From contig NZ_SOZD01000001.1 in assembly GCF_004519335.1 (NCBI RefSeq), positions 744,001 to 808,000 on the forward strand: a DNA stretch of 64,000 nucleotides, given 5' to 3'. Made by a program: the position numbers and the translations under genes. The DNA comes from Jiella endophytica. GTDB lineage: Bacteria; Pseudomonadota; Alphaproteobacteria; Rhizobiales; Rhizobiaceae. The notes beneath the pieces were generated by a model. That model was not told the origin of the DNA. It did not search any database and was given only the letters and a program-made list of their open reading frames with translations. Of this stretch, positions 32,824-44,937 are shown piece after piece; the stretch's first letter is position 1, and each line of letters begins with the position of its first letter.

Positions 32824-33171
32824 TCAGTGACTGATCATCCAGGGCCGCTTGCCCGGAAAAGTCTTGGCGGCGCCGGCTGCCGCTGCGGCGGCGCCGGCCT
32901 TCGGTCGGGAGGGCGAGCAGCAGCCGCAGCCCGCCCCGTGCTTGCCGCCATGGCCTTGCGAGGCGAACTTCGGCGCGTTGGCGCTGCGCTCGTTGGTGGC
33001 GAAAGCCGAGCGCCGCCCGGCATCCATGGTCGAGAGCCACGGCGCGGTGAGGATCACCCGCCGGGCGCTCGTGCCGCATGCCGGGCAGTCGCAGGGCTCC
33101 GCAGCCTGCGCCATCGGGCGCAGGCTGGTGAAGGTGCCGCAATCCTTGCAGGCATAGTCGTAGAAGGGCAT
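32824..33171 (-). CDS. fmdB: FmdB-family zinc-ribbon protein
   Basis: 115 residues starting MPFYDYACKDCGTFTSLRPM, with the CxxC...CPxCG zinc ribbon of FmdB (cysteines of KDCG and DCPACG). The C-terminal half is low complexity with a GAGCGCCSPSRP cysteine cluster and an alanine-rich run. FmdB accompanies formamidase genes; it is a putative regulator or assembly factor without a proven role. It starts 4 bp after fmdA and ends the amide/urea operon. Confidence 0.85.
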   Translation of the reverse strand: MPFYDYACKDCGTFTSLRPMAQAAEPCDCPACGTSARRVILTAPWLSTMDAGRRSAFATNERSANAPKFASQGHGGKHGAGCGCCSPSRPKAGAAAAAAGAAKTFPGKRPWMISH

Positions 33172-33175
33172 CGGA

Positions 33176-34405
33176 TCAGACGTCCTCGGCGATCGGCATG
33201 TCGACGGAGCCGTCGAGGAACTTCGTCGGCCCGTCATTGCCCGGCATGATGTCGAATTCGAAGACGTCGGTCGGCAGCCACAGCGTCGCGCAGGCATTCG
33301 GCACGTCGACGACGCCCGAGATGTGCCCCTGGACCGGCGCGGTGCCGAGGATCGAATAGGCCTGGGCACCGGAATAGCCGAACTTCTTCAGATACTCGAT
33401 GGCGTTGAGGCAGGCCTGGCGATAGGCGACATGGACGTCGAGGAAATGCTGCTTGCCGGCCTCGTCGACCGAGATGCCCTCGAAGATCAGGAAGTCGTCG
33501 TATTTCGGGGCAATCGGCGACGGCTTGAAGATCGGGTTCTTGATCCCGTATTTCGCCATGCCGCCCTTCAGGAGCGACACCCGGATATGCAGCCAGCCGG
33601 CCATCTCGATGGCGCCGCAGAAGGTGATCTCGCCGTCGCCCTGGCTGAAATGCAGGTCGCCCATCGAAAGCCCGGCGCCGTCGACATAGACCGGGAAATA
33701 GACCTTCGAGCCGCGCGACAGATCCTTGATGTCGCAGTTGCCGCCATGTTCGCGCGGCGGCACGGTGCGCGCGCCCTCGAGCGCGGCCTTCTCCTTCGCC
33801 TCGCCCTTCAGCTTGCCCATATGGGCGGACTGGGTATTGGGCAGGGCCGCCAGCGTCGGCACGCGCTCGGGGTCGGTGTCGAACAGCGCCTTCTCACGGC
33901 TGTTCCAGGCATCGAGCATCTTGCGGTCGGGCAGGCAGCCGATGAGACCGGGATGGATCAGGCCGGCATAGCGCACGCCGGGCACGTGGCGGGACTTGGT
34001 AAACATGCCCTCGAAGTCCCAGATCGACTTCTGCGCCAGCGGGAAGTGCTGGTCGAGGAAGCCGCCGCCGTTCTTCAGCGAGAAGAAGCCGTTGAAGCCC
34101 CAAAGGCTGTCTTCGAAGGCGCCGATGTCGAGGATGTCGACCACCAGGAGATCGCCGGGCTCGGCGCCCTTCACCCCAATCGGGCCGGACAGGTAGTGCA
34201 CCTGCTCCAATTCGACGTCGCGGACGTCCTCGGCGCTGTCGTCGTTCTTGATCTGCCCGCCCGTCCAGTCGTGGGTCTCGACCTTGAAGTCGTCCCCGGG
34301 GTTGACCCAGCAGGCCATCGGAATGTCCGGATGCCAGCGATTGTGGACCATTTCGTTGGCGTGGGGCGACTGCGAGAGATCGACCTTGATCAGCGTATCG
34401 GTCAT
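33176..34405 (-). CDS. fmdA: Formamidase
   Basis: 409 residues, the full length of FmdA/AmdA formamidases. Visible are the start MTDTLIKVDLSQSPHANEMVHNRWHPDIPMACW, EPGDLLVVDILDIGAFEDS, the GGNCDIKDLSRGSKVYFPVYV core and the GDLHFSQGDGEITFCGAIEMAG metal/substrate segment. It hydrolyses formamide to formate and ammonium in the cytoplasm. A GGAG site precedes the ATG. It follows urtE by 57 bp, so imported amides would be used at once; the importer may carry formamide or urea. Confidence 0.95.
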   Translation of the reverse strand: MTDTLIKVDLSQSPHANEMVHNRWHPDIPMACWVNPGDDFKVETHDWTGGQIKNDDSAEDVRDVELEQVHYLSGPIGVKGAEPGDLLVVDILDIGAFEDSLWGFNGFFSLKNGGGFLDQHFPLAQKSIWDFEGMFTKSRHVPGVRYAGLIHPGLIGCLPDRKMLDAWNSREKALFDTDPERVPTLAALPNTQSAHMGKLKGEAKEKAALEGARTVPPREHGGNCDIKDLSRGSKVYFPVYVDGAGLSMGDLHFSQGDGEITFCGAIEMAGWLHIRVSLLKGGMAKYGIKNPIFKPSPIAPKYDDFLIFEGISVDEAGKQHFLDVHVAYRQACLNAIEYLKKFGYSGAQAYSILGTAPVQGHISGVVDVPNACATLWLPTDVFEFDIMPGNDGPTKFLDGSVDMPIAEDV

Positions 34406-34462: not shown

Positions 34463-35152
34463 TCAGACCGACAGGAACTTGGCGACCTTCGCCTCGTCGA
34501 CGGCGGCGATCGGCTCGTCATGGACGAGGTCGCCGTTTTCGAGCACCAGCACCCGGTCGGCGATGTCGAGGGCGAAGGACAGGACCTGTTCGGAGACGAC
34601 GATGGACAGGCCCTTCTCGTCGCGGATCTTCTTCAGCGTCCGCGCCATGTCGCGGATGATCGATGGCTGGATGCCCTCGGTGGGCTCGTCGAGGAGCAGC
34701 ACCTTCGGCCGCGAGGCGAGCGCCCGGGCGACCGCCAGCTGCTGCTGCTGGCCGCCCGACAGGTTGCCGCCGCGGCGCTTCCTCATTTCGAGGAGCACCG
34801 GGAAGAGTTCGTAGATGTCGCCGGGCACGGACTTCTCGCCGGTGACGGTGAGCCCGGTCTCGATGTTCTCGCGCACCGTCATGGTCGAGAAGATCATCCG
34901 CCCTTGAGGCACGTAGCCGACACCGCCCTTGACCCGTTCGTGGCTCTTCGACCCGGTGAGATCGGCGCCGTCGACGGTGACCCGGCCGGATTTCGTCGGC
35001 ACCAGCCCCATCAGCGACTTCATCAGCGTGGTCTTGCCCATGCCGTTGCGGCCCATGATGGCGACGATCTCGCCCGGCGCGACGTTGAAGTTGAAGCCGT
35101 GCAGCACCTCGCTCGATCCATAGGCGACGTGGAGGCCGGAGACGTTGAGCAT
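34463..35152 (-). CDS. urtE: Urea/short-amide ABC transporter ATP-binding protein UrtE
   Basis: 229 residues of the LivF/UrtE type. Walker A is GRNGMGKTT, signature LSGGQQQQLAVARALA, Walker B VLLLDEPTEGIQPSII, and the H-loop contains a serine-glutamate VVSEQ instead of the usual histidine region, as in many UrtE proteins. With UrtD it drives the permease pair. In Methylophilus the equivalent fmdDEF genes transport short amides and urea; here either is possible. Confidence 0.9.
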   Translation of the reverse strand: MLNVSGLHVAYGSSEVLHGFNFNVAPGEIVAIMGRNGMGKTTLMKSLMGLVPTKSGRVTVDGADLTGSKSHERVKGGVGYVPQGRMIFSTMTVRENIETGLTVTGEKSVPGDIYELFPVLLEMRKRRGGNLSGGQQQQLAVARALASRPKVLLLDEPTEGIQPSIIRDMARTLKKIRDEKGLSIVVSEQVLSFALDIADRVLVLENGDLVHDEPIAAVDEAKVAKFLSV

Positions 35153-35163
35153 GGCGCTTGTCC

Positions 35164-35910
35164 TCAGTGACCGAGATAGACTTCGACGACCTTCGGGTCG
35201 GCCTTGACGTGGGCCATCGGCCCTTCCGAGATCACCCTGCCCTGGTGCAGCACGGTCACCTTGTGGGCGATGTCCTCGACGAACTTCATGTCGTGCTCGA
35301 TGACGATGACCGACCGGCCTTCGATGATCCGGTGCAGGAGTTCGGCGGTCTTGATACGCTCCGAGACGCTCATGCCGGCGACCGGCTCGTCGAGCATCAA
35401 CAGCTCCGGGTCCTGGATCAAAAGCATGCCGATCTCCAGCCACTGCTTCTGGCCGTGGCTGAGATATTCGGCCCGCTCGCCAAGGAGATCGGAGAGGAAG
35501 ATCATCTCGGCGATCTCCTCGACGCGCTCCATCACCTCGGCATCGCGCTTGAAGGCCAGGGCGCCGAAGACGCTGCGGCCGCGCGGGAAGGAGATCTCCA
35601 GATTTTCGAAGACCGTCAGGTCCTCGTAGATCGAGGGGTTCTGGAACTTCCGTCCGACCCCGGCATGGACGATCTGATGTTCCTTCAGCTGGGTCAGTTC
35701 CTTGCCGCGGAAGCGGATCGAGCCGGAGGTGGCGCGGGTCTTGCCGCAGATCAGGTCGAGGGCCGTGGTCTTGCCGGCGCCGTTCGGGCCGATGATCACC
35801 CGGATCTCGCCGGGATCGACATAGAAGGAGAGATCGTCCACCGCCTTGAAGCCGTCGAAAGAGACGGTCAGGGCCTCGACGGCGAGGAGGAAGTCGGTCG
35901 GGTGGGTCAT
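35164..35910 (-). CDS. urtD: Urea/short-amide ABC transporter ATP-binding protein UrtD
   Basis: 248 residues. Walker A is GPNGAGKTT, the LivG/UrtD-type signature reads LSHGQKQWLEIGMLL, Walker B is LLMLDEPVAGMSVSE and the H-loop VIEHDMKFVEDIA. The SHGQKQWLE signature is characteristic of UrtD. It starts 10 bp after urtC with a GAGGAGG site and ends 11 bp before urtE, so the ATPase pair is tightly coupled. Confidence 0.92.
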   Translation of the reverse strand: MTHPTDFLLAVEALTVSFDGFKAVDDLSFYVDPGEIRVIIGPNGAGKTTALDLICGKTRATSGSIRFRGKELTQLKEHQIVHAGVGRKFQNPSIYEDLTVFENLEISFPRGRSVFGALAFKRDAEVMERVEEIAEMIFLSDLLGERAEYLSHGQKQWLEIGMLLIQDPELLMLDEPVAGMSVSERIKTAELLHRIIEGRSVIVIEHDMKFVEDIAHKVTVLHQGRVISEGPMAHVKADPKVVEVYLGH

Positions 35911-35920
35911 GGCGTCCTCC

Positions 35921-37057
35921 TCACTCGGCGATCGCGGCGGGGGCTTCGGCCGGCGCGTCGCGCCGGTCGGAGTTCCGGGTGGCGAGCCGCTTGAACAGCG
36001 GCTGGACGTGGGACTTGTAGATGCCGGCAAGACCGTTCGGGAACGCCATCACCACGGCGATGAACAGGGCGCCCATGGCGAACAGCCAGAGCTCCGGGAA
36101 GCTCTCGGAAAAGGTCGTCTTGCCCCAGTTGACGAGCAGCGTGCCGTAGACCGCGCCGATCAGCGAATAGCGGCCGCCGACGGCGCAGTAGATCACCATC
36201 TCGATCGACGGGACGATGCCGACGAAGGAGGGCGACATGAAGCCGACCTGCAGGGTGAACATGGCGCCGCCGATGCCCGAGATCGCCGCCGCGAAGCAGA
36301 AGACGAAGATCTTGTAGGCGGCGACGTCGTAGCCGGAGAAGCGGACCCGGTCCTCCTTGTCGCGCAGCGCGACGAGGATGCGGCCGAGCTTCGACGAACG
36401 CACCAGCATCGACAGGGCGATGACGCCGAGAAGCAGGAAGGCATTGACGAAATAGAGGATCGTCTTCGCCGTATCCGTGCGGATGTCCCAGCCGTGGAGC
36501 GTCCTGAGGTCGGTGATGCCGTTGACGCCGCCGGTATAGCCCTGCTGGCCGATGATCAGGATGGTCAGGATCGCCGCGATCGCCTGGGTGATGATGGCGA
36601 AATAGACGCCGCCGACCCTTCGCGTGAACATCGCGAAGCCGATGACGAAGGCGAGGATCGCCGGCACCGCGACGACGGCGAGAAGCGTGAAGGCGAAGGA
36701 GTGGAACGGCTCCCAGAACCAGGGCAGCTCGGTGACCTGGTTCCAGTCCATGAAATCCGGGATGCCGGGCGTCGACTGGATCTTGGTGGCCTCCGGCGTC
36801 GAGGCCTCGAGCTTCAGGAACATCGCCATGCAGTAGCCGCCGAGGCCGAAGAAGATCCCCTGCCCGAGGGAGAGGATGCCTGCCGAGCCCCAGCACAGCA
36901 CCAGGCCGACCGCGACGAAGGCGTAGGTGAGATACTTGCCGACGAGATTGAGGCGGAAGGCATCGGTCACCGCGGGCAACAGGATGACGATGATCGCGGC
37001 GAGGATGACGAAGCCGATCAGCTCGGTCTTCTTCAGAGGGTTGAGTAGAGGTGTCAT
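35921..37057 (-). CDS. urtC: Urea/short-amide ABC transporter permease UrtC
   Basis: 378 residues with about ten membrane helices in LivM/UrtC style. Notable are VLCWGSAGILSLGQGIFFGLGGYCMAMFL near residue 55 and the ATPase-docking loop RILVALRDKEDRVRFSGYDV. A long periplasmic loop (about 85-115) is typical of UrtC. It pairs with UrtB in the inner membrane. The start has GAGGAG upstream. Confidence 0.93.
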   Translation of the reverse strand: MTPLLNPLKKTELIGFVILAAIIVILLPAVTDAFRLNLVGKYLTYAFVAVGLVLCWGSAGILSLGQGIFFGLGGYCMAMFLKLEASTPEATKIQSTPGIPDFMDWNQVTELPWFWEPFHSFAFTLLAVVAVPAILAFVIGFAMFTRRVGGVYFAIITQAIAAILTILIIGQQGYTGGVNGITDLRTLHGWDIRTDTAKTILYFVNAFLLLGVIALSMLVRSSKLGRILVALRDKEDRVRFSGYDVAAYKIFVFCFAAAISGIGGAMFTLQVGFMSPSFVGIVPSIEMVIYCAVGGRYSLIGAVYGTLLVNWGKTTFSESFPELWLFAMGALFIAVVMAFPNGLAGIYKSHVQPLFKRLATRNSDRRDAPAEAPAAIAE

Positions 37058-37067
37058 GACGGGCTCC

Positions 37068-37994
37068 TCAGCGGCGGACTTTGAGGACGAAAAGCCCCTG
37101 CGGACGCAGCATCAGGATGCCGACCACGGTGAGCAGCGTGAGGACCTTGGCCATCGAGCCGGAGAGGAAGAACTCCATGGTCGACTGGGCCTGGGAGATG
37201 GTGAAGGCCGAGGCGACCGTGCCGATCAGGCTGGTGGCGCCGCCGAAGACGACGACGAGGAAGGTGTCGACGATGTAGAGCTGGCCGGAACTCGGGCCGG
37301 TCGAGCCGATCATCGTGAAGGCCGAGCCGGCGACGCCGGCGATGCCGCAGCCGAGGCCGAAGGTGAAGCGATCGACCCTTTCGGTGTCGATGCCGACGGC
37401 GCCCGCCATCTGGCGGTTCTGCACCACGGCCCGCACCTTCGCGCCGAAGCGCGAGCGGAACATGATGAGATAGACCGCAAGGGTGATGGCAAGGGTGATC
37501 GCCATGACGATCAGTCCGTTGATCGGGATCTCGATGATGTCGGTGAGCGGCAGCGAGCCCATCATCCATTCCGGCAAGGTCACGCCCACCTCGCGCGCGC
37601 CGAAGATCGTGCGGTAGGCCTGCTGCAGGATCAAAGACAGGCCCCAGGTGGCGAGCAGCGTGTCGAGCGGGCGTTTGTAGAGGAAGCGGATCAGCCCCAT
37701 CTCGACCAGCATGCCGAGGGCGCCGGAGGCGAAGAAGGCGAGCACCATGGCGATGAAGAAGGAGATCGGCATCAGCGCCGGCGCCGTGCTCTGGAAGAAG
37801 TTCGAGCACAGATAGGTGACGTAGGCGCCGAGGATCATGAACTCGCCATGCGCCATGTTGATCACGCCCATCTGGCCGAAGATGATGGCGAGGCCGAGGG
37901 CCATGAGCACGAAGACCGAAAACAGCACCAGGCCGGCGAAGCCCTGCATGGCGAAGATCGATCCGAGCTCGCTCCAACTGTAGTCCGCGAACAT
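37068..37994 (-). CDS. urtB: Urea/short-amide ABC transporter permease UrtB
   Basis: 308 residues with about eight membrane helices, of LivH/UrtB type: LGLAIIFGQMGVINMAHGEFMILGAYV, ATWGLSLILQQAYRTIFG, and the ATPase-docking loop KVRAVVQNRQMAGAVGIDTERVD. It forms the translocation path with UrtC. It is separated from urtA by 120 bp containing a stem-loop. Confidence 0.93.
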   Translation of the reverse strand: MFADYSWSELGSIFAMQGFAGLVLFSVFVLMALGLAIIFGQMGVINMAHGEFMILGAYVTYLCSNFFQSTAPALMPISFFIAMVLAFFASGALGMLVEMGLIRFLYKRPLDTLLATWGLSLILQQAYRTIFGAREVGVTLPEWMMGSLPLTDIIEIPINGLIVMAITLAITLAVYLIMFRSRFGAKVRAVVQNRQMAGAVGIDTERVDRFTFGLGCGIAGVAGSAFTMIGSTGPSSGQLYIVDTFLVVVFGGATSLIGTVASAFTISQAQSTMEFFLSGSMAKVLTLLTVVGILMLRPQGLFVLKVRR

Positions 37995-38114: not shown

Positions 38115-39386
38115 TTATTGGTAGCCTTCCGGGAACGGATCCGGCTCCATCAGCTCCTTGGTCTCGTAGACGACCTCGTACTGGCCGTCGGCCTTGGCGT
38201 GGCCGACGCGGGTCTTCGACCAGAGGTGATGGTTCTCGTGGATGCGGACATAGCCTTCCGGCGCGGTGGTCAGCTCGATGCCCGGCGAGGCTTCCTTGAT
38301 CTTGTCGATGTCGAAAGAGCCGGCCTTCTCGACGGCGGCCTTCCACAGCCAGGGACCGAGATAGGCGGCCTGGGTGACGTCGCCGATGACGATGTCCTGG
38401 CCCCACATGTCCTTGAAAGCCTTGACGAACGCCTTGTTGTTGTCGTTGTCGAGGGACTGGAAGTACTTCATCGTGGCATAGGCGCCCTCGATGTTTTCGC
38501 CGCCGATGCCGCGGATCTCGTCCTCGGTGACCGAGATGGTCATCAGCAGCGGCTTTTCCTTCGTCATGTCGATGCCGGCAGCCTTCAGCTGCTTGTAGAA
38601 GGCGACGTTCGAACCGCCGACGACGATGGCGTAGATGACGTCCGGCTTGCGCAGCTTGATCTTGTTGATCACCGAATTGAACTGGGTGTGGCCGAGCGGA
38701 TAGTACTCCTCGCCGACCACCTTCAGGCCGAGGTGATCCTCGATGTGCTTGCGGGCGATCTTGTTGGAGGTGCGTGGCCAGATGTAGTCGGAGCCGAGCA
38801 GATAGAAGCTCTTGGCTCCCTTCTCCTTGGCCACCCAATCGAGGCCGGCGAGGATCTGCTGGGTGGCTTCCTGGCCGGTATAGATGACGTTGGGGCTCTC
38901 CTCGAGGCCCTCGTAGAAGGTCGGGTAGTAGAGCATGCCGTTATACTGCTCGAACACCGGCAGCACGGCCTTGCGCGACGCCGAGGTCCAGCAGCCGAAG
39001 ACCGCCGCGACCTTGTCCTCGACGAGCAGCTTCTTGGCCTTCTCGGCGAAGGTCGGCCAGTCGGACGCCCCGTCTTCCTGGGTGAACTCGATCTTGCGGC
39101 CGAGGACGCCGCCCATGTCGTTGATCTGCTTGATCGCGAGCTTTTCGGCCTGCACCGAGCCGGTTTCCGAGATCGCCATCGTGCCGGTGATCGAGTGGAG
39201 GATGCCCACCTTCACCGTGTCGTCGGTGACGGCGAGACCGGTGGTATTGACCTCGCTCGTCGGCGGCGTCTGGGCGAGGCCGAGCCGCGGCATCGCGGCC
39301 ATGCCGAGCGCCAGAGCGGCGGCGCCGATCATCAGTTTGCGACGCTGCATCGAGCGCGGGGCCGCGCCATTCTTGTCGGTTTGCAT
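38115..39386 (-). CDS. urtA: Urea/short-amide ABC transporter substrate-binding protein UrtA
   Basis: 423 residues. The N-terminus SMQRRKLMIGAAALALGMAA looks like a twin-arginine-type signal. The mature protein is the UrtA/FmdD periplasmic fold: VKVGILHSITGTMAISETG, FGCWTSASRKAVLPVFEQYNGMLYYPTFYEG, YLLGSDYIWPRTSNKIARKH. The LYYPTFYEG and GSDYIWPRT segments are diagnostic for urea/amide binding proteins. It is the first gene of the urtABCDE-fmdAB operon, divergent from the permease-kinase fusion that probably controls it. Confidence 0.94.
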   Translation of the reverse strand: MQTDKNGAAPRSMQRRKLMIGAAALALGMAAMPRLGLAQTPPTSEVNTTGLAVTDDTVKVGILHSITGTMAISETGSVQAEKLAIKQINDMGGVLGRKIEFTQEDGASDWPTFAEKAKKLLVEDKVAAVFGCWTSASRKAVLPVFEQYNGMLYYPTFYEGLEESPNVIYTGQEATQQILAGLDWVAKEKGAKSFYLLGSDYIWPRTSNKIARKHIEDHLGLKVVGEEYYPLGHTQFNSVINKIKLRKPDVIYAIVVGGSNVAFYKQLKAAGIDMTKEKPLLMTISVTEDEIRGIGGENIEGAYATMKYFQSLDNDNNKAFVKAFKDMWGQDIVIGDVTQAAYLGPWLWKAAVEKAGSFDIDKIKEASPGIELTTAPEGYVRIHENHHLWSKTRVGHAKADGQYEVVYETKELMEPDPFPEGYQ

Positions 39387-39708
39387 GAAAACCCCCTGTC
39401 GAATTGGATTGCCGGGACGGGTGCCGGCCGAGCGACGCCCGGCGATTGACAGGGCCGAGGATGGGGGCGGATGCTGCACGGCAACAATACGTCAAATGGC
39501 GTATGGTCGCAGTGCACAAATGCGGCGACACTCCCGCATGCACGTACGGTAAGGCCGGGGATGCGCGCCGCGCATACTCGGGCGTAGGGGCGTGCGCGCA
39601 GTCGTTCGAACGTAGTCAGGTGGAGTCTTTGACCGGATCCAGCGGCCCCGATGTCCAGTCCGGACCAGGCCTCGTCCTCTGCTCGGGAACCGGGCGGGAG
39701 ACCGCCTC
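39387..39708. other. Divergent promoter region between urtA and the sensor kinase
   Basis: 322 bp with no gene. It contains the palindrome at 39487-39504 and several related short words (GTACGGTA near 39545, GCGTA near 39590). It should hold the urtA and kinase promoters, though no convincing -35/-10 pair could be chosen by eye. Confidence 0.5.
39487..39504. promoter_or_regulatory. Palindrome, candidate operator of the LuxR-type response regulator
   Basis: ATACGTCAAATGGCGTAT has arms ATACG/CGTAT, extended by a T-G and a C-G pair, around a 4-nt centre. It lies about 100 bp upstream of urtA on the divergent side. The two-component genes next to it encode a LuxR-type regulator, so this is a plausible binding site; nothing further supports it. 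Confidence 0.4.
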
Positions 39709-42700
39709 GTGACGGCGCCGCAGCGCATCCTCAGGGTCAGGCGAAACTACAATCAGTGGGTCGCCGACGAGACGCTGGAGGACTACGCGCTGCGCTTCAC
39801 CGCCAAGCGCGCCCGGCGGTTCACGCCGTTCCAGATCGCCTCCACCGCCTTCGGCGGCATCTCCTTCCTGGCGCTCGAGGCGATCGGCGGCTCGCTGATC
39901 CTCGGCTGCGGCTTCGCCAACATGATCCCTGCCCTTCTCGTCACCGGGATCCTGATCTTCGGCGCGGCCCTGCCGATCTGCTACAACGCGGCGAAATACG
40001 GGGTCGACATCGATCTCCTCACTCGCGGCGCCGGCTTCGGCTATCTCGGCTCCACCGTCACCTCGCTGATCTACGCCTGCTTCACCTTCATCTTCCTCGC
40101 CATCGAGGCGGCGATCATGGCGATGGCGCTGAAGATGCTGTTCGGCCTGCCGCTGTGGATCGGCTACATCCTGTCGGCGGTGATGGTCATTCCGATCGTC
40201 ACCCTCGGCATCGGCCTGATCAGCCGCTTCCAGGCCTGGACGCAGCCGCTGTGGCTGGCCCTCAACTTCCTGCCCTTCGCGATCCTCGGCTCGCAGGGCG
40301 GCCTGCCGGTGGCGGAGTGGACGGAGTTCCAGGGCAGCCGCGGCGACGGCCATTTCGACCTGCTGCTGTTCGGCGGCGCCTCGGCGATCCTCTTCGCCCT
40401 CATGGCGCAGATCGGCGAACAGGTGGACTATCTGCGATTCCTGCCCCGCCGCACGCCGGGCCACCACGCCTCGTGGTGGGCGGCGCTGATCGCCGGCGGG
40501 CCAGGCTGGATCGTCATCGGCGCGATCAAGATCCTCGCCGGTTCGCTGCTCGCCGTGATGCTGATCGGCAATGGCTTTCCGGCCTTTGACGCGCATCAGC
40601 CGACGGTCATGTATGCGGCACTCTACGAGCGGCTGTTCGGCAGCCCCGAGCTCGCCGTCGTGGTGATGGGCCTCTTCGTCGTCATCGCCCAGACGAAGAT
40701 CAACGTCACCAACGCCTATGCCGGCTCGATCGCCTGGTCGAACTTCTTCTCCCGCCTCACCCACAGCCATCCCGGCCGGGTGGTCTGGCTGGTCTTCAAC
40801 GTCGCGATCGCCGTCCTTCTCATGGAGATGGGGATCCTCCAGGCGCTCGAAGAAATCCTCGGCCTCTACGCCATCCTCGCGGTCTCATGGGTGGCGCCGC
40901 TGGTCGCCGACCTCGTCGTCAACAAGCCGCTGCAGCTTTCGCCCCGCCACATCGAGTTCAAGCGCGCGCATCTCTACGACATCAACCCCGTCGGCTTCGG
41001 CGCGATGGGGGCCGGCATCCTGGTCGGTCTGACGCTGCATACCGGGATCTTCGGCGCGGTGCCGGCGGCGCTTGCAGTCTATGCGGCGCTTCTCACCGCC
41101 TTCGTCGCCTCGCCGCTGATCGCCATTCTGACCGCCGGACGCTTCTACATCGCGCGCCATCCGCGACAGGACTGGGCCGGCATCGAGACGATCGCCTGCG
41201 CGATCTGCGAGCACGAATTCGAGCGCGAGGACATGGCCTTCTGCCCGGCCTATTCCGGTCCGATCTGTTCGCTCTGCTGTTCCCTCGACGCGCGCTGCCA
41301 CGACCTCTGCAAGACCGGCAGCCGGGTGCGCGAGCAGATCGTCGGTGGCCTGCGATACAAGATCTCCGAGCGCCTCGCCCGCTTCGTCGATTCCCCGCAA
41401 GGGCATTATCTGGCGATCTTCTCGATCCTCATCGGCCTCAGCGCCGCGGCGCTGTCGCTCATCCATTTCCAGACGCGGCTGTCACGGCACGCCGATCCGG
41501 ACACCTCGGCGCTGGTCCTCGTCCAGGTCTTCGTCGTTCTCGTCATCCTGATCGGCATCGCCTCCTGGCTGCTCGTGCTTGCGCATGAGAGCCGCCGGGT
41601 GGCGCAGGAGGAATCCAGCCGGCAGACGCTGCTTCTCACCCAGGAGATCGAGGCGCACCGGGCGACCGACGCCGAACTGCAGCTCGCCAAGGAGAAGGCC
41701 GAGGCGGCGAGCCTTGCCAAGACCCGCTTCGTCGTCGGCATGAGCCACGAGCTCAGGACCCCGTTGAACTCGATCCTCGGCTTTGCCCAGATCCTCGACG
41801 AGGACAGCGACATCGACCAGAAGCGCCGCGAGGGCCTGCGCGTCATCCGCCGCTCCGGCGAGCACCTTGCCGGTCTGATCGACGGCCTCCTCGACATCTC
41901 GCGGATCGAGGCCGGCAAGATCGAGATCTATCACGACGTCTTCGCGCTCGAGCCGCTGCTCACCCAGATCGTCGAGATGTTCCGGCTGCAGGCGGGCAAT
42001 GCCGGCCTCGCCTTCGTCTACGAGGTCGACGACCCGCTGCCCAAGCATGTGCGCGGCGACGAGAAGCGCGTCCGGCAGATCCTGATCAACCTGCTATCCA
42101 ACGCCATCAAGTTCACCGCCAAGGGGCGCATCGTCTTTCGCATCCGCTACCGCAACCAGATCGCCACCTTCACCATTTCCGATACCGGGCCCGGCATCTC
42201 GCCGGACAATCTGGAGCGGATCTTCGAGCCGTTCGAGCGCCTGGAAGGCTCGACGGCGGCGCCCGGCATGGGGCTCGGCCTGACGATCACCAAGCTGTTC
42301 AGCGAGATCCTCGGCGGCGACATCCGCGTCGAGAGCGATCTCGGGCGGGGCAGCCGCTTCCATGTCCGGCTGATGCTCGCTGCCACCGCCGAGGACAAGG
42401 CGGCGCCCGAGGCCAGGCGCCGGATCTGCGGCTACGAAGGCCGCCGGATGACCATCCTGTCGGCCGACGACGAGCCGGTGCATCGCCAGCTGATCGAGGA
42501 GATCCTCGGACCCCTCGGCTTTACCGTCCTGACCGCGGACGGCGGCGAGACTTGCCTGCGAATGGCCGATCTCTGCGAACCCGACCTCTTCCTCCTCGAC
42601 ATCAACATGCCGGGGATCGACGGCTGGGGCGTGGCCCGCACAGTGCGAAAGAAGGGCCTCGCGGCGCCGGTGGTGATGATCTCGGCAGGTGCCAGGCCGC

Positions 42701-43059
42701 CCTCGCTCGACCGGCATCTCTACGACGACTGGGTGGCAAAGCCGCTGTCGATCGCGGCGCTGGTCGACGTGATCGGCCGGGCCCTCGCCCTCACCTGGCG
42801 GTTCGAGGGCGACGACGTCGAAACCGTCCCGGCGCGGCACCAGGAATACCGCGGCGAAACGCTGTCACACGGCGAGCGGGCCGAACTCGCAAGGCTGCTC
42901 GACATTGGCTATGTCAGGGGGATCAATGCAAAGCTCGATGAAATTGCGGCCCGCAGACCGGGCACACGGGACGTCGTCGCGCGCTTTCGCCAGCACATGC
43001 TCCGCTTCGACTACGAGGCCTGCCGGCGCGATCTCGACGGGCCGCCCCATGGCTCCTAA
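39709..43059 (+). CDS. NCS1-permease / 8-Cys cluster / histidine kinase / receiver fusion sensor
   Basis: 1116 residues. Residues about 25-480 form a complete-looking purine-cytosine permease (NCS1) domain with about 12 helices (DYALRFTAKRARRFTPFQI, AAKYGVDIDLLTRGAGFGYLGST, TQPLWLALNFLPF). Eight cysteines follow at 497, 500, 512, 520, 523, 524, 530 and 534, suggesting a metal or redox site. Two further helices (about 565-630) and a coiled coil lead to the HisKA H-box MSHELRTPLNSILGF (H680), an HATPase domain (NLLSNAIKF, DTGPGISPDN, GMGLGLTITKLF) and a receiver with D964 (LLDINMPGIDGWG). It probably senses an amide, urea or purine-like compound through the permease fold and phosphorylates the regulator encoded next, which it overlaps by 11 bp. 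Confidence 0.92.
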   Translation: MTAPQRILRVRRNYNQWVADETLEDYALRFTAKRARRFTPFQIASTAFGGISFLALEAIGGSLILGCGFANMIPALLVTGILIFGAALPICYNAAKYGVDIDLLTRGAGFGYLGSTVTSLIYACFTFIFLAIEAAIMAMALKMLFGLPLWIGYILSAVMVIPIVTLGIGLISRFQAWTQPLWLALNFLPFAILGSQGGLPVAEWTEFQGSRGDGHFDLLLFGGASAILFALMAQIGEQVDYLRFLPRRTPGHHASWWAALIAGGPGWIVIGAIKILAGSLLAVMLIGNGFPAFDAHQPTVMYAALYERLFGSPELAVVVMGLFVVIAQTKINVTNAYAGSIAWSNFFSRLTHSHPGRVVWLVFNVAIAVLLMEMGILQALEEILGLYAILAVSWVAPLVADLVVNKPLQLSPRHIEFKRAHLYDINPVGFGAMGAGILVGLTLHTGIFGAVPAALAVYAALLTAFVASPLIAILTAGRFYIARHPRQDWAGIETIACAICEHEFEREDMAFCPAYSGPICSLCCSLDARCHDLCKTGSRVREQIVGGLRYKISERLARFVDSPQGHYLAIFSILIGLSAAALSLIHFQTRLSRHADPDTSALVLVQVFVVLVILIGIASWLLVLAHESRRVAQEESSRQTLLLTQEIEAHRATDAELQLAKEKAEAASLAKTRFVVGMSHELRTPLNSILGFAQILDEDSDIDQKRREGLRVIRRSGEHLAGLIDGLLDISRIEAGKIEIYHDVFALEPLLTQIVEMFRLQAGNAGLAFVYEVDDPLPKHVRGDEKRVRQILINLLSNAIKFTAKGRIVFRIRYRNQIATFTISDTGPGISPDNLERIFEPFERLEGSTAAPGMGLGLTITKLFSEILGGDIRVESDLGRGSRFHVRLMLAATAEDKAAPEARRRICGYEGRRMTILSADDEPVHRQLIEEILGPLGFTVLTADGGETCLRMADLCEPDLFLLDINMPGIDGWGVARTVRKKGLAAPVVMISAGARPPSLDRHLYDDWVAKPLSIAALVDVIGRALALTWRFEGDDVETVPARHQEYRGETLSHGERAELARLLDIGYVRGINAKLDEIAARRPGTRDVVARFRQHMLRFDYEACRRDLDGPPHGS

Positions 43060-43933
43060 GCCCGCCGACGCCCGCCTCGTCGTCCTGGCGGTGGAAGACT
43101 CGCCCGAGGCCGCGGCCTTCCTGGTCGAGGCGCTGGAGCGGGAGGGGATGACGGTGCTCGTCGCACCGGACGGCTCGCGCGCCGTCTCGATCGCCGAAAG
43201 GGTGACGCCCGACGTCATCCTGATGGACGCGATCATGCCCGGCAAGGACGGTTTCGAGACCACCGAATGGATCAAGGCCAACGAGAAGCTCGCCGACATC
43301 CCGATCATCTTCATGACCGGCCTCAGCGAGACCGAACATATTGTGCGCGCCTTTGCCGCCGGCGGCGTCGACTACGTCACGAAGCCGATCAAGCCGGAGG
43401 AACTCGTCGCCCGCATCGGCGTCCACAACCAGATCGCCAAGGCGAGCCGCGGCGCCAAGCAGGCCCTCGACACCGCCGGGCGCTATCTCTTCGCGGTCGA
43501 CGGCGCCGGCGCGCTTCTCTGGGCGACGCCGCAGGCGCGGCAACTCCTGGCACTCGACGATCCGCGGGCGTTGAAGCTGCTTCCCGTGCCGGCGGAGATG
43601 CTGAGGGCGGGCGGATCGAAGATGCTCGCCTCCGGGCTGACGGTGACTGTGGTCGGCCAGCCGGACGAGAGCGAGTTCCTTATCCGCATCACCCGCGAAA
43701 GCATGGAGGAGGACATCGCCAGCCTGCAGCGCAGCCTCCATCTCACGGCACGTGAAGCCGAGGTCGTGCTCTGGCTTGCCAAGGGCAAGGCCAATCGCGA
43801 CATCGCCGACATCCTGGCGCTCAGCCCGCGCACGGTGAACAAGCATCTGGAGGTGATCTTCCGCAAGCTCGGCGTCGAGAACCGCGCCGCGGCGACGGCG
43901 ATCGCCGTGCGCCACCTCTCCGGCAACGGCTGA
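43049..43933 (+). CDS. LuxR-family response regulator
   Basis: 294 residues. The receiver domain (about 8-130) has the acidic start AVEDSPEAAAF, phosphoacceptor D60 in ILMDAIMPGKDGFE, the threonine in FMTGLSE and the lysine in VTKPIKPEEL. A middle PAS-like stretch (about 150-215) precedes a C-terminal LuxR helix-turn-helix (LTAREAEVVLWLAKGKANRDIADILALSPRTVNKHLEVIFRKLG). It should bind DNA when phosphorylated by the permease-kinase fusion, whose gene it overlaps. The divergent urt-fmd operon is the likely target. Confidence 0.92.
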   Translation: MAPKPADARLVVLAVEDSPEAAAFLVEALEREGMTVLVAPDGSRAVSIAERVTPDVILMDAIMPGKDGFETTEWIKANEKLADIPIIFMTGLSETEHIVRAFAAGGVDYVTKPIKPEELVARIGVHNQIAKASRGAKQALDTAGRYLFAVDGAGALLWATPQARQLLALDDPRALKLLPVPAEMLRAGGSKMLASGLTVTVVGQPDESEFLIRITRESMEEDIASLQRSLHLTAREAEVVLWLAKGKANRDIADILALSPRTVNKHLEVIFRKLGVENRAAATAIAVRHLSGNG

Positions 43934-44052: not shown

Positions 44053-44937
44053 TCAGATCGCGTCGATCGGCACCTTGAGGTAGCGCTTGCCGTCGCTCTC
44101 CGGCTCGGGCAGCGCGCCGGCCTTCATGTTCACCTGCAGCGACGGAATGATCAGCTTCGGCATGTCGAGCGTGGCATCCCGCTCGGTGCGGAACCTGACG
44201 AATTCCTCCTTCGTCTTGCCGCCGCCGACATGAATGTTGTGGGCCTTTTCCTCGCCGACCGTCGTTTCCCAGCGGATGTCGCGGCCGTTCGGCCCGTAGT
44301 CGTGGCACATGAAAAGCCGCGTCTCGTCCGGCAGCGACAGCACCTTCTGGATCGAATCGTAGAGCGTCGCGGCATCGCCGCCCGGAAAGTCGGCGCGGGC
44401 CGAGCCGCCGTCGGGCATGAACAGCGTGTCGCCGACAAAGGCGGCATCGCCCATGACATGGGTCATGCAGGCGGGCGTGTGGCCCGGCGTGTGGATCGCG
44501 ACGCAGTCCATCGCGCCGACCTTGTAGGTGTCGCCGTCGTCGAACAGCCGGTCGAACTGCGAGCCGTCGCGCTGGAATTCGGTGCCCTCGTTGAAGATCT
44601 TGCCGAAGGTCTCCTGCACGACCGTGATGTTCCGGCCGATGCCGATCTTGCCGCCGAGGCGGCCCTGGATATACGGCGCCGCCGACAGATGATCGGCATG
44701 GACATGGGTCTCGATCAGCCAGTCGACCTCGAGGCCGGTCGCCTCGACATAGGCGATGATCTCGTCGGCATGACCGTAGCTGATCCGGCCTGCCGCATAG
44801 TCGATGTCCATGACGGAATCGACGATGGCGCAGGCATTCGAGGCCGGGTCCTTGACGACGTAGCTGATCGTGTTGGTGGCGGGGTCGAAGAAGCCCTTCA
44901 CGGCGGGCTTGACGTCGAGATGGACTGGGTAGGTCAT
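44053..44937 (-). CDS. Persulfide dioxygenase-like metallo-beta-lactamase fold protein
   Basis: 294 residues of the ETHE1/Blh type. The metal site is THVHADH (residues 77-83), with further ligands in HTPGHTPACMTH, FVGDTLFMPDGG and the late MCHDYGPNG. Unlike standard Blh, there is no fused N-terminal DUF442/rhodanese-like domain; that domain is fused to SQR in this locus instead. It should oxidise glutathione persulfide to sulfite using iron and oxygen. It is divergent from the peroxiredoxin-repressor genes across an AT-rich region that probably carries the repressor's operators. Confidence 0.9.
   Translation of the reverse strand: MTYPVHLDVKPAVKGFFDPATNTISYVVKDPASNACAIVDSVMDIDYAAGRISYGHADEIIAYVEATGLEVDWLIETHVHADHLSAAPYIQGRLGGKIGIGRNITVVQETFGKIFNEGTEFQRDGSQFDRLFDDGDTYKVGAMDCVAIHTPGHTPACMTHVMGDAAFVGDTLFMPDGGSARADFPGGDAATLYDSIQKVLSLPDETRLFMCHDYGPNGRDIRWETTVGEEKAHNIHVGGGKTKEEFVRFRTERDATLDMPKLIIPSLQVNMKAGALPEPESDGKRYLKVPIDAI

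Follow-up and report, generated by a model that had tools for sequence, protein, structure and literature searches.

Transporters of the LeuT fold that are fused to histidine kinases are known from the SLC5/STAC kinases CrbS/CrbR, RpuS/RpuR and CbrA, which are SSS-type transceptors, and CrbS and RpuS also possess a C-terminal receiver (REC) domain and a LuxR-type partner (PMC5715377, PMC9100948, PMC13022988). An Amt-fused ammonium sensor kinase of anammox bacteria likewise uses the fold of a transporter of a nitrogen compound as its kinase input (PMC5764959). The window of this study is a stretch of 64,000 nucleotides from Jiella endophytica (contig NZ_SOZD01000001.1, positions 744,001 to 808,000), in which one gene encodes a permease half and a kinase with a C-terminal receiver in a single protein, next to the gene of a LuxR-type partner. 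Its permease half, however, is of the NCS1 type, it carries a segment of eight cysteines, and its gene is oriented divergently from a urtABCDE-fmdAB gene cluster.

We consider it probable that this protein is a former NCS1 carrier that now acts as a receptor for urea or short amides and switches on urt-fmd through the LuxR-type regulator. Urea or a short-chain amide, such as formamide or acetamide, would occupy the permease pocket, and the conformational change that follows would be passed via the cysteine module, which probably binds zinc, and the last two helices to H680 of the kinase. The kinase may then phosphorylate D964 of its own receiver, the LuxR-type regulator or both, and the regulator would bind the element TACG-N8-CGTA upstream of urtA and activate, rather than repress, urtABCDE-fmdAB. 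The domain order, its conservation, the gene linkage and the cis element are observed here. The features of the sensor gene, its partner and the element are as follows.

39709..43059, + strand: gene for the NCS1-type permease/cysteine-domain/hybrid histidine kinase, GTG start, 1116 amino acid residues (open reading frame and Pfam)
39811..41166, + strand: NCS1-type (LeuT-fold) permease domain, about residues 35-486 (AlphaFold2 model, Foldseek and hhalign)
41197..41310, + strand: eight-cysteine segment C497-C534, treble-clef-like in our reading (alignment and model)
41395..41622, + strand: two further helices before the kinase, residues 563-638 (AlphaFold2 model)
41716..41916, + strand: HisKA, residues 670-736, with H680 (Pfam and alignment)
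42055..42378, + strand: HATPase_c, residues 783-890 (Pfam)
42454..42771, + strand: receiver domain, Response_reg 916-1021, with D964 (Pfam and alignment)
43049..43933, + strand: LuxR/NarL-type response regulator with REC and GerE domains (Pfam); the open reading frame start at 42905 is over-extended
39488..39503, no strand: inverted repeat with the sequence TACGTCAAATGGCGTA, predicted operator of urtA for the response regulator (motif searches)

The initial annotation, made from the letters of the stretch, had described a full NCS1-type domain. Residues 1-630 matched no Pfam family even at E ≤ 10, so that a full domain is not provable by Pfam, and the whole protein matched only HisKA, HATPase_c and Response_reg (E ≤ 0.001). 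The NCS1 part of the description is upheld by the fold and by intermediate homologs. A model of residues 1-640, built from a profile of 26 aligned sequences, had a mean predicted local distance difference test score (pLDDT) of 77.3 and a predicted template modeling score (pTM) of 0.76. When it was compared with PDB by Foldseek (585 matches at E ≤ 10), the five top matches all belonged to CodB or Mhp1, the two NCS1 carriers with solved structures (best E 5.6e-9; template modeling score normalized by target 0.66-0.74), and further LeuT-fold proteins came next. Moreover, hhalign of the 26-sequence permease profile with four kinase-less relatives gave a probability of 99.9 and an E of 2.3e-34 over 442 columns. 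Three of these relatives were scanned with PF02133, of which L161 and L169 passed the cut-off and L167 was just below it, and L161 (G465:C40) was also matched by the permease half at E 2.5e-30 in the search of the phylum sample. By fold and by homology to PF02133 proteins, the permease half is assigned to the NCS1 type. Searches of PDB sequences yielded no match with the 26-sequence profile and, with L161, one hit that was judged to be chance, and PF02133 had no match in the genome of J. endophytica. The SSF (SLC5) domain PF00474 had no Pfam match in this kinase. A protein with SSF, PAS, histidine kinase and receiver domains, a SLC5-type transporter kinase that does match PF00474, is also encoded in the J. 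endophytica genome (L205; G000:C11:992483-996010).

The eight cysteines of the window protein are at residues 497, 500, 512, 520, 523, 524, 530 and 534, as first described. All eight were kept in 156/156 kinase-core homologs (152 different sequences, window included) among 163 aligned open frames, while each of the seven kinase-less relatives among these frames had four or fewer. The remaining three cysteines of residues 1-640 (67, 91 and 124) were not conserved. Among the kinase-less relatives, L119 of Acinetobacter retains two C-x2-C pairs, which align with C497, C500, C520 and C523, L120 contains one C-x2-C, and L161, L167, L168 and L170 contain none. L169 (G150:C132, 6922-8562), a plain NCS1 carrier near a distant UrtA-like gene, has its own C-terminal C-x2-C ... 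C-x2-C tail, suggesting that cysteine tails on NCS1 carriers are older than the kinase fusion. Residues 484-558, modeled from 45 sequences (pLDDT 84.7), are predicted to form four strands followed by a helix. Strands one and two flank the first C-x2-C, and the second C-x2-C starts where strand four ends and continues into the helix. Many of the 50 Foldseek hits listed for this module were titled PHD, RING, FYVE or other zinc folds. We read the predicted fold as a treble clef, with fold matches that are not significant, and read the cysteines as structural on that basis; structural zinc appears to be their likelier use. This treble-clef-like fold, for which no hit was significant, and the presence of four cysteines in two kinase-less relatives make the redox role that had been offered for the cysteines less likely. 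The two further helices that had been noticed after the segment are present in the longer model as two long helices, 563-591 and 597-638.

Natural variants of this region were also found. Four urease-linked members (L156-L159, of G636, G624, G646 and G313, respectively) have open reading frames of 1216-1365 residues with the extra residues directly before the cysteine segment, where the match is broken between 484-487 and 493-496. L171 (G550:C6, 8857-10713) is a 618-residue kinase of the same family without the permease half, which keeps the two helices, the kinase, the receiver and a degenerate remnant of the cysteine segment, and its regulator gene is convergent.

HisKA, HATPase_c and receiver domains with their histidine and aspartate, together with an adjoining regulator, characterize the protein as a hybrid histidine kinase of a two-component system. 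H680 and D964, both correctly named from the sequence alone, were invariant in 142/142 different sequences over 1100 residues, window included. No histidine phosphotransfer (HPt) domain was found by the Pfam Hpt model, and the C-terminal tail has no invariant histidine, the commonest being at position 1056 in 83/142. The overlap that had been described with the LuxR-type regulator gene holds and amounts to 11 bases if ATG 43049 is the start, which is most likely; the earlier start, TTG 42905, was not retained. A similar regulator gene adjoins 118/125 kinase loci, which comprise 124 loci found by a kinase-core cut-off and L122, which is just below it and has HisKA and HATPase_c by Pfam. No regulator gene was found at six fmdA-amiS loci or at L051, which ends at a contig end. 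In the clade of L162-L166 and L122, the kinase has no receiver (877-916 residues) and adjoins fmdA and a gene for an AmiS/UreI channel, and in Paracoccus two separate response-regulator genes lie downstream.

The divergent gene cluster consists of the following genes.

38115..39350, - strand: urtA (NCBIfam); likely start ATG 39350
37068..37994, - strand: urtB (NCBIfam)
35921..37057, - strand: urtC (NCBIfam)
35164..36030, - strand: urtD (NCBIfam); open reading frame limits, true start further in
34463..35443, - strand: urtE (NCBIfam); open reading frame limits, true start further in
33176..34405, - strand: fmdA, formamidase (NCBIfam)
32827..33171, - strand: gene for an FmdB-like zinc-ribbon protein (match to FmdB zinc-ribbon model)

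The divergence from urtABCDE-fmdAB, another feature of the first description, was borne out. The NCBIfam bit scores exceeded their cut-offs for UrtA (556/493), UrtB (393/250), UrtC (448/296), UrtD (370/304), UrtE (328/286) and FmdA (767/500), and the FmdB-like protein matched the zinc-ribbon model. Urease is encoded elsewhere in the J. endophytica genome. On the other side of the kinase and regulator genes, a protein of the MBL fold (44053-44937, - strand) matches the Blh sulfur transferase/dioxygenase model in the C-terminal portion of the latter, with a score under the cut-off.

The linkage to urea and amide genes is tight and recurrent. The fetched stretches, mostly of 15-32 kb, were searched by similarity for urt, fmdA, amiE, amiS and urease genes, and at least one of these was found at 116/125 kinase loci. 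Divergent urt genes of a kind here called low (UrtA mostly about 40% identical) stood alone at 47 of these loci, and urt genes of the low or an undetermined kind were accompanied by urease genes at 20. Genes of the high kind were found with fmdA at 25 loci, with fmdA and amiE at 11, alone at one that lies at a contig end, and at one (L121) with an AmiE-like gene of 36% identity that is annotated as formamidase. Urease genes alone were found at five loci and fmdA with amiS at six. The urt ATP-binding cassette (ABC) importer is thus encoded in the stretch at 105/125 loci. At seven of the other nine loci, all from Ensifer, a UrtA with 94-95% identity is encoded upstream at a distance of 7.8 to 25.8 kb by coordinates. 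This distance is established for L077, where a single scaffold spans 6.1 Mb, and rests on fitting coordinates for the rest; the last two, L067 and L160, show no neighbors because their contigs are only 7.3 and 4.8 kb. L001, L131 and L171 are not part of the neighbor table, and L171 is outside all counts; L103 and L126 are one place, of which L126 was kept in the neighbor table and dropped from the motif counts. The counts are weighted to Rhizobiaceae, as 80 loci come from a single search that gave 211 relatives, of which the best 80 were taken, and they are counts of loci rather than of independent events because genomes may recur in the samples. Independence therefore rests on the tree only. 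In this tree (74 rows, permease columns only, a quick method with one support value), the urease neighbor changes at least seven times and fmdA at least six times when scored gene by gene, numbers that lean high because the stretches are short. At least four switches occur between an amide type (fmdA, amiE or high urt) and a urea type (low urt or urease). Thus, the enzymes change while the urea/amide theme stays. Moreover, the kinase-less L119 is directly before a urease operon and the kinase-less L120 is directly by an aliphatic amidase gene. Co-occurrence of the domain order, the eight cysteines and linkage to urt and fmd genes across genomes had been named as a check; in the counts given above, the fusion and the cysteines are conserved and the tie to urea/amide genes recurs, and neither random neighbors nor non-conserved cysteines, which had been named beforehand as refuting, were seen. 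At low-urt loci of rhizobia, UrtB can have about 540 residues, as at L126 (11738-13369), compared with 308 in the window.

With the N-terminal 640 residues as query, matches were found in 87/297 genomes of the order, own genome included, of which 84 contained strong relatives and three (G248, G055 and G121) gave weak matches that were set aside. In the phylum sample, 58/398 genomes matched, or 52 after six weak or fragmentary matches were set aside. The relatives kept from a search of named genomes were, by their titles, from Alpha- and Gammaproteobacteria (best 80 of 211). Among plasmid records, 529/72,556 matched the permease half, 342 of which were from Klebsiella. L121, the single Klebsiella plasmid relative that was inspected, combines the kinase with urtABCDE and with a gene that carries a formamidase annotation.

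The candidate operator emerged from a dyad search in which no sequence was specified in advance and which covered the 450 bases upstream of the kinase gene, in dereplicated regions. TACGT-N6-ACGTA was present in 15/35 and 18/45 regions of the two urt groups, and the maximum for any dyad in shuffled sequences was 3. The full motif, TACGTCA-N2-TGACGTA, is a 7-2-7 inverted repeat, a geometry known for NarL (PMC7419079). The window copy has one mismatch to it, and its own genome of 5.25 Mb contains no other site within two mismatches; a reversed control pattern has five there. Within three mismatches, the motif occurred upstream of urtA in 90/101 kinase-linked regions (32/38 high and 58/63 low) and in 0/103 shuffles, which included L161 and L169, two loci without a true UrtA neighbor that are not among the 101 real regions. 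The strict core TACG-N8-CGTA was upstream of urtA at 84/101 kinase-linked loci, with about 0.5 expected from shuffles. In a held-out set (L010-L038), which was not used in discovery and was read upstream of the kinase gene, the strict core was found at 25/29 loci (0.12 expected); the full-length motif was weaker there, with 16/29 within three mismatches and 1/29 in shuffles. The core was absent from the urtA regions of kinase-less genomes (0/30), which are loci from 50 genomes hand-picked among 210 without a match to the permease half. As 38 of these 50 have a UrtA match and none is above 46% identity, the controls are comparable to the low-urt kind. Where urt genes are remote from the kinase gene, the element sits at urtA (L065, L077, L144 and L157), so that urtA, and not the kinase gene, is its likely target. 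A sigma-54 promoter at urtA was also looked for by eye, gave no match and was dropped.

The substrate pocket was compared with that of Escherichia coli CodB, in which 18/18 positions checked fit the numbering used for the Proteus structure (PMC9379551). R216 and Y285 of CodB, which are constant in NCS1 carriers, correspond to R243 and Y337, both invariant. CodB W108, which stacks on the base, is replaced by F in 81 and L in 71 of 152 sequences, and F204, the other side of the sandwich, by M in 83, V in 32 and I in 23, plus others. E133, Q234, E237, Q238, N332 and N335 were invariant in 152/152. E133 aligns with CodB G112, the presumed equivalent of Gln121, a substrate-binding residue in Mhp1, as judged by the offset from Mhp1 Trp117. 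The sodium-site threonine pair T278/T279 corresponds to K330/I331 in the ungapped register that we prefer or to V333/T334 in that of MAFFT, and at least one threonine is lost in either register. A lysine side chain in the sodium site has been described for CbrA (PMC13022988). The pocket also differs between the urt groups, of which the low one has Leu129 with M232 and M334 (54/60) and the high one F129 and T334 (37/37). As aligned, this pocket would suit a small ligand that is not aromatic better than a nucleobase, and sodium coupling may be absent.

Several results weigh against a urea/amide receptor acting through this operator. The pocket comparison is a MAFFT alignment of low identity, the register of transmembrane helix 8 (TM8) is ambiguous, and hhalign with CodB (probability 89) covers residues 24-209 only, so that TM6 and TM8 rest on MAFFT and motifs. 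The best Foldseek E for the cysteine module was 0.28, with 0/256 matches at E ≤ 0.001. Most of the motif counts come from the loci of its discovery, an overlap that is avoided only in the held-out set of 29 loci and in the 30 controls, and 17/101 kinase-linked urtA regions lack the strict core. An exact 16-mer scan of 297 genomes was uninformative, with matches in four genomes, one of them (G237) beside the kinase gene. The strict core was also absent from the stretches of the six fmdA-amiS loci and from those of nine urease loci that have no urtA within the stretch (L054, L083, L140, L149, L150, L155, L156, L158 and L159), which limits the operator claim to urt-linked members rather than the whole family. 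A dyad search in the urease-linked group (10 loci, nine after dereplication; L157 has a lone urtA) found nothing.

Other readings of the same protein lead to different cues. If the permease half were an active transporter, its turnover, with movement of protons or solute, could set kinase activity in place of occupancy. The invariance of the NCS1-constant R243 and Y337 would suit such a flux sensor, CbrA transports histidine (PMC7918813, PMC13022988), and the kinase-less homologs that adjoin a urease operon and an amidase gene could themselves be genuine transporters. We regard this as unlikely, however, for an importer is already encoded at the 105 urt-bearing loci and the sodium site has not kept its side-chain ligands. 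The cue could also be general nitrogen limitation or the product ammonia, which formamidase, amidase and urease all yield, and in Methylophilus methylotrophus ammonia represses the fmd operon (PMC10781810). Formamide and urea also act as inducers of that operon (PMC10781810), and the input domain here is a solute-carrier fold and none of the sensor domains known to Pfam, which makes a nitrogen-status or ammonium sensor a decidedly unlikely reading.

Sensing of a metal or of redox state by the eight-cysteine site, with the permease half merely as a membrane anchor, would account for the strict retention of the cysteines in kinase-fused sequences and their smaller number in the kinase-less relatives, and the adjacent cysteine pair of the motif is unusual for zinc. 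But the pocket residues are as invariant as the cysteines, the recurrent neighbors are urea/amide genes, and the predicted fold resembles structural zinc fingers, with no significant match; we judge this reading highly improbable. A nucleobase, hydantoin or other purine-breakdown ring, as in ordinary NCS1 carriers, would agree with the ancestry of the permease half, and one of ten neighborhoods read by annotation (L126) has hydantoinase/oxoprolinase-type genes a few genes downstream. No purine-catabolism gene was named in these ten neighborhoods, and the replacement of both sandwich aromatics of CodB, by F or L and by mostly non-aromatic residues in this low-identity alignment, makes the purine-breakdown ligand mentioned in the initial annotation less likely, to the point that we consider such a ligand extremely improbable.

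A receptor for urea or short amides thus remains the preferred reading, and we tentatively extend it, with somewhat less than even confidence, to a so far unnamed, widespread family of NCS1 transceptors. In this family, the carrier fold would have been re-cut into a urea/short-amide receptor by removal of the aromatic sandwich, with an invariant E133 at the presumed site of Mhp1 Gln121 and an invariant K330 in the sodium-site helix. A four-cysteine carrier tail would have grown into the eight-cysteine coupling module where the kinase attached, and the family would drive urt, fmd and possibly urease genes via the dedicated operator TACG-N8-CGTA.

Fusion of a transporter to a kinase is already known from the SLC5/STAC and Amt systems, and it is the NCS1-based form that is new. 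In the open PMC text that was searched, no description of an NCS1-kinase fusion was found. A two-component LuxR regulator and a hybrid kinase have been noted beside urtABCDE, with fmdA adjacent by locus tag (PMC13296017), and a urtABCDE-fmdAB-amiE cluster has been described without a sensor, the terms "histidine kinase" and "two-component" having no occurrence in the available text (PMC13209695). For such clusters, the permease-kinase family provides a concrete sensor, regulator and operator, each predicted as set out above.

Similar to NarX/NarL, the output of the system is of the LuxR/GerE type and its candidate operator is a 7-2-7 inverted repeat (PMC7419079), whereas the sensor architecture and the target genes differ. 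The Amt-fused kinase differs in transporter family and in ligand, which are unrelated to those proposed here. With CodB and Mhp1, the protein has the fold, the constant arginine and tyrosine and the location of the binding site in common (PMC9379551); different from these carriers, it has lost the aromatic sandwich, possesses the invariant K330 in the sodium-site helix and has gained a cysteine module and a kinase. CrbR, the regulator of an SLC5/STAC system, also acts via an inverted repeat at its target promoters (PMC5715377, PMC9100948, PMC13022988). Different from the SLC5/STAC kinases, however, the transporter here is NCS1-type and not SSF, the candidate targets are urea/amide genes, and the eight-cysteine module and two helices lie at the position that STAC and PAS occupy there. 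No PAS was found by Pfam, and Pfam showed nothing between transporter and kinase, a search in which no dedicated STAC model was used. The transporter-sensor design is thus different from the SLC5 type, as had been suspected. A second LeuT-fold family would thereby serve as kinase input, one that has natural kinase-less relatives and a defined cysteine module, and these make the question of binding versus flux in transporter-kinases directly testable.

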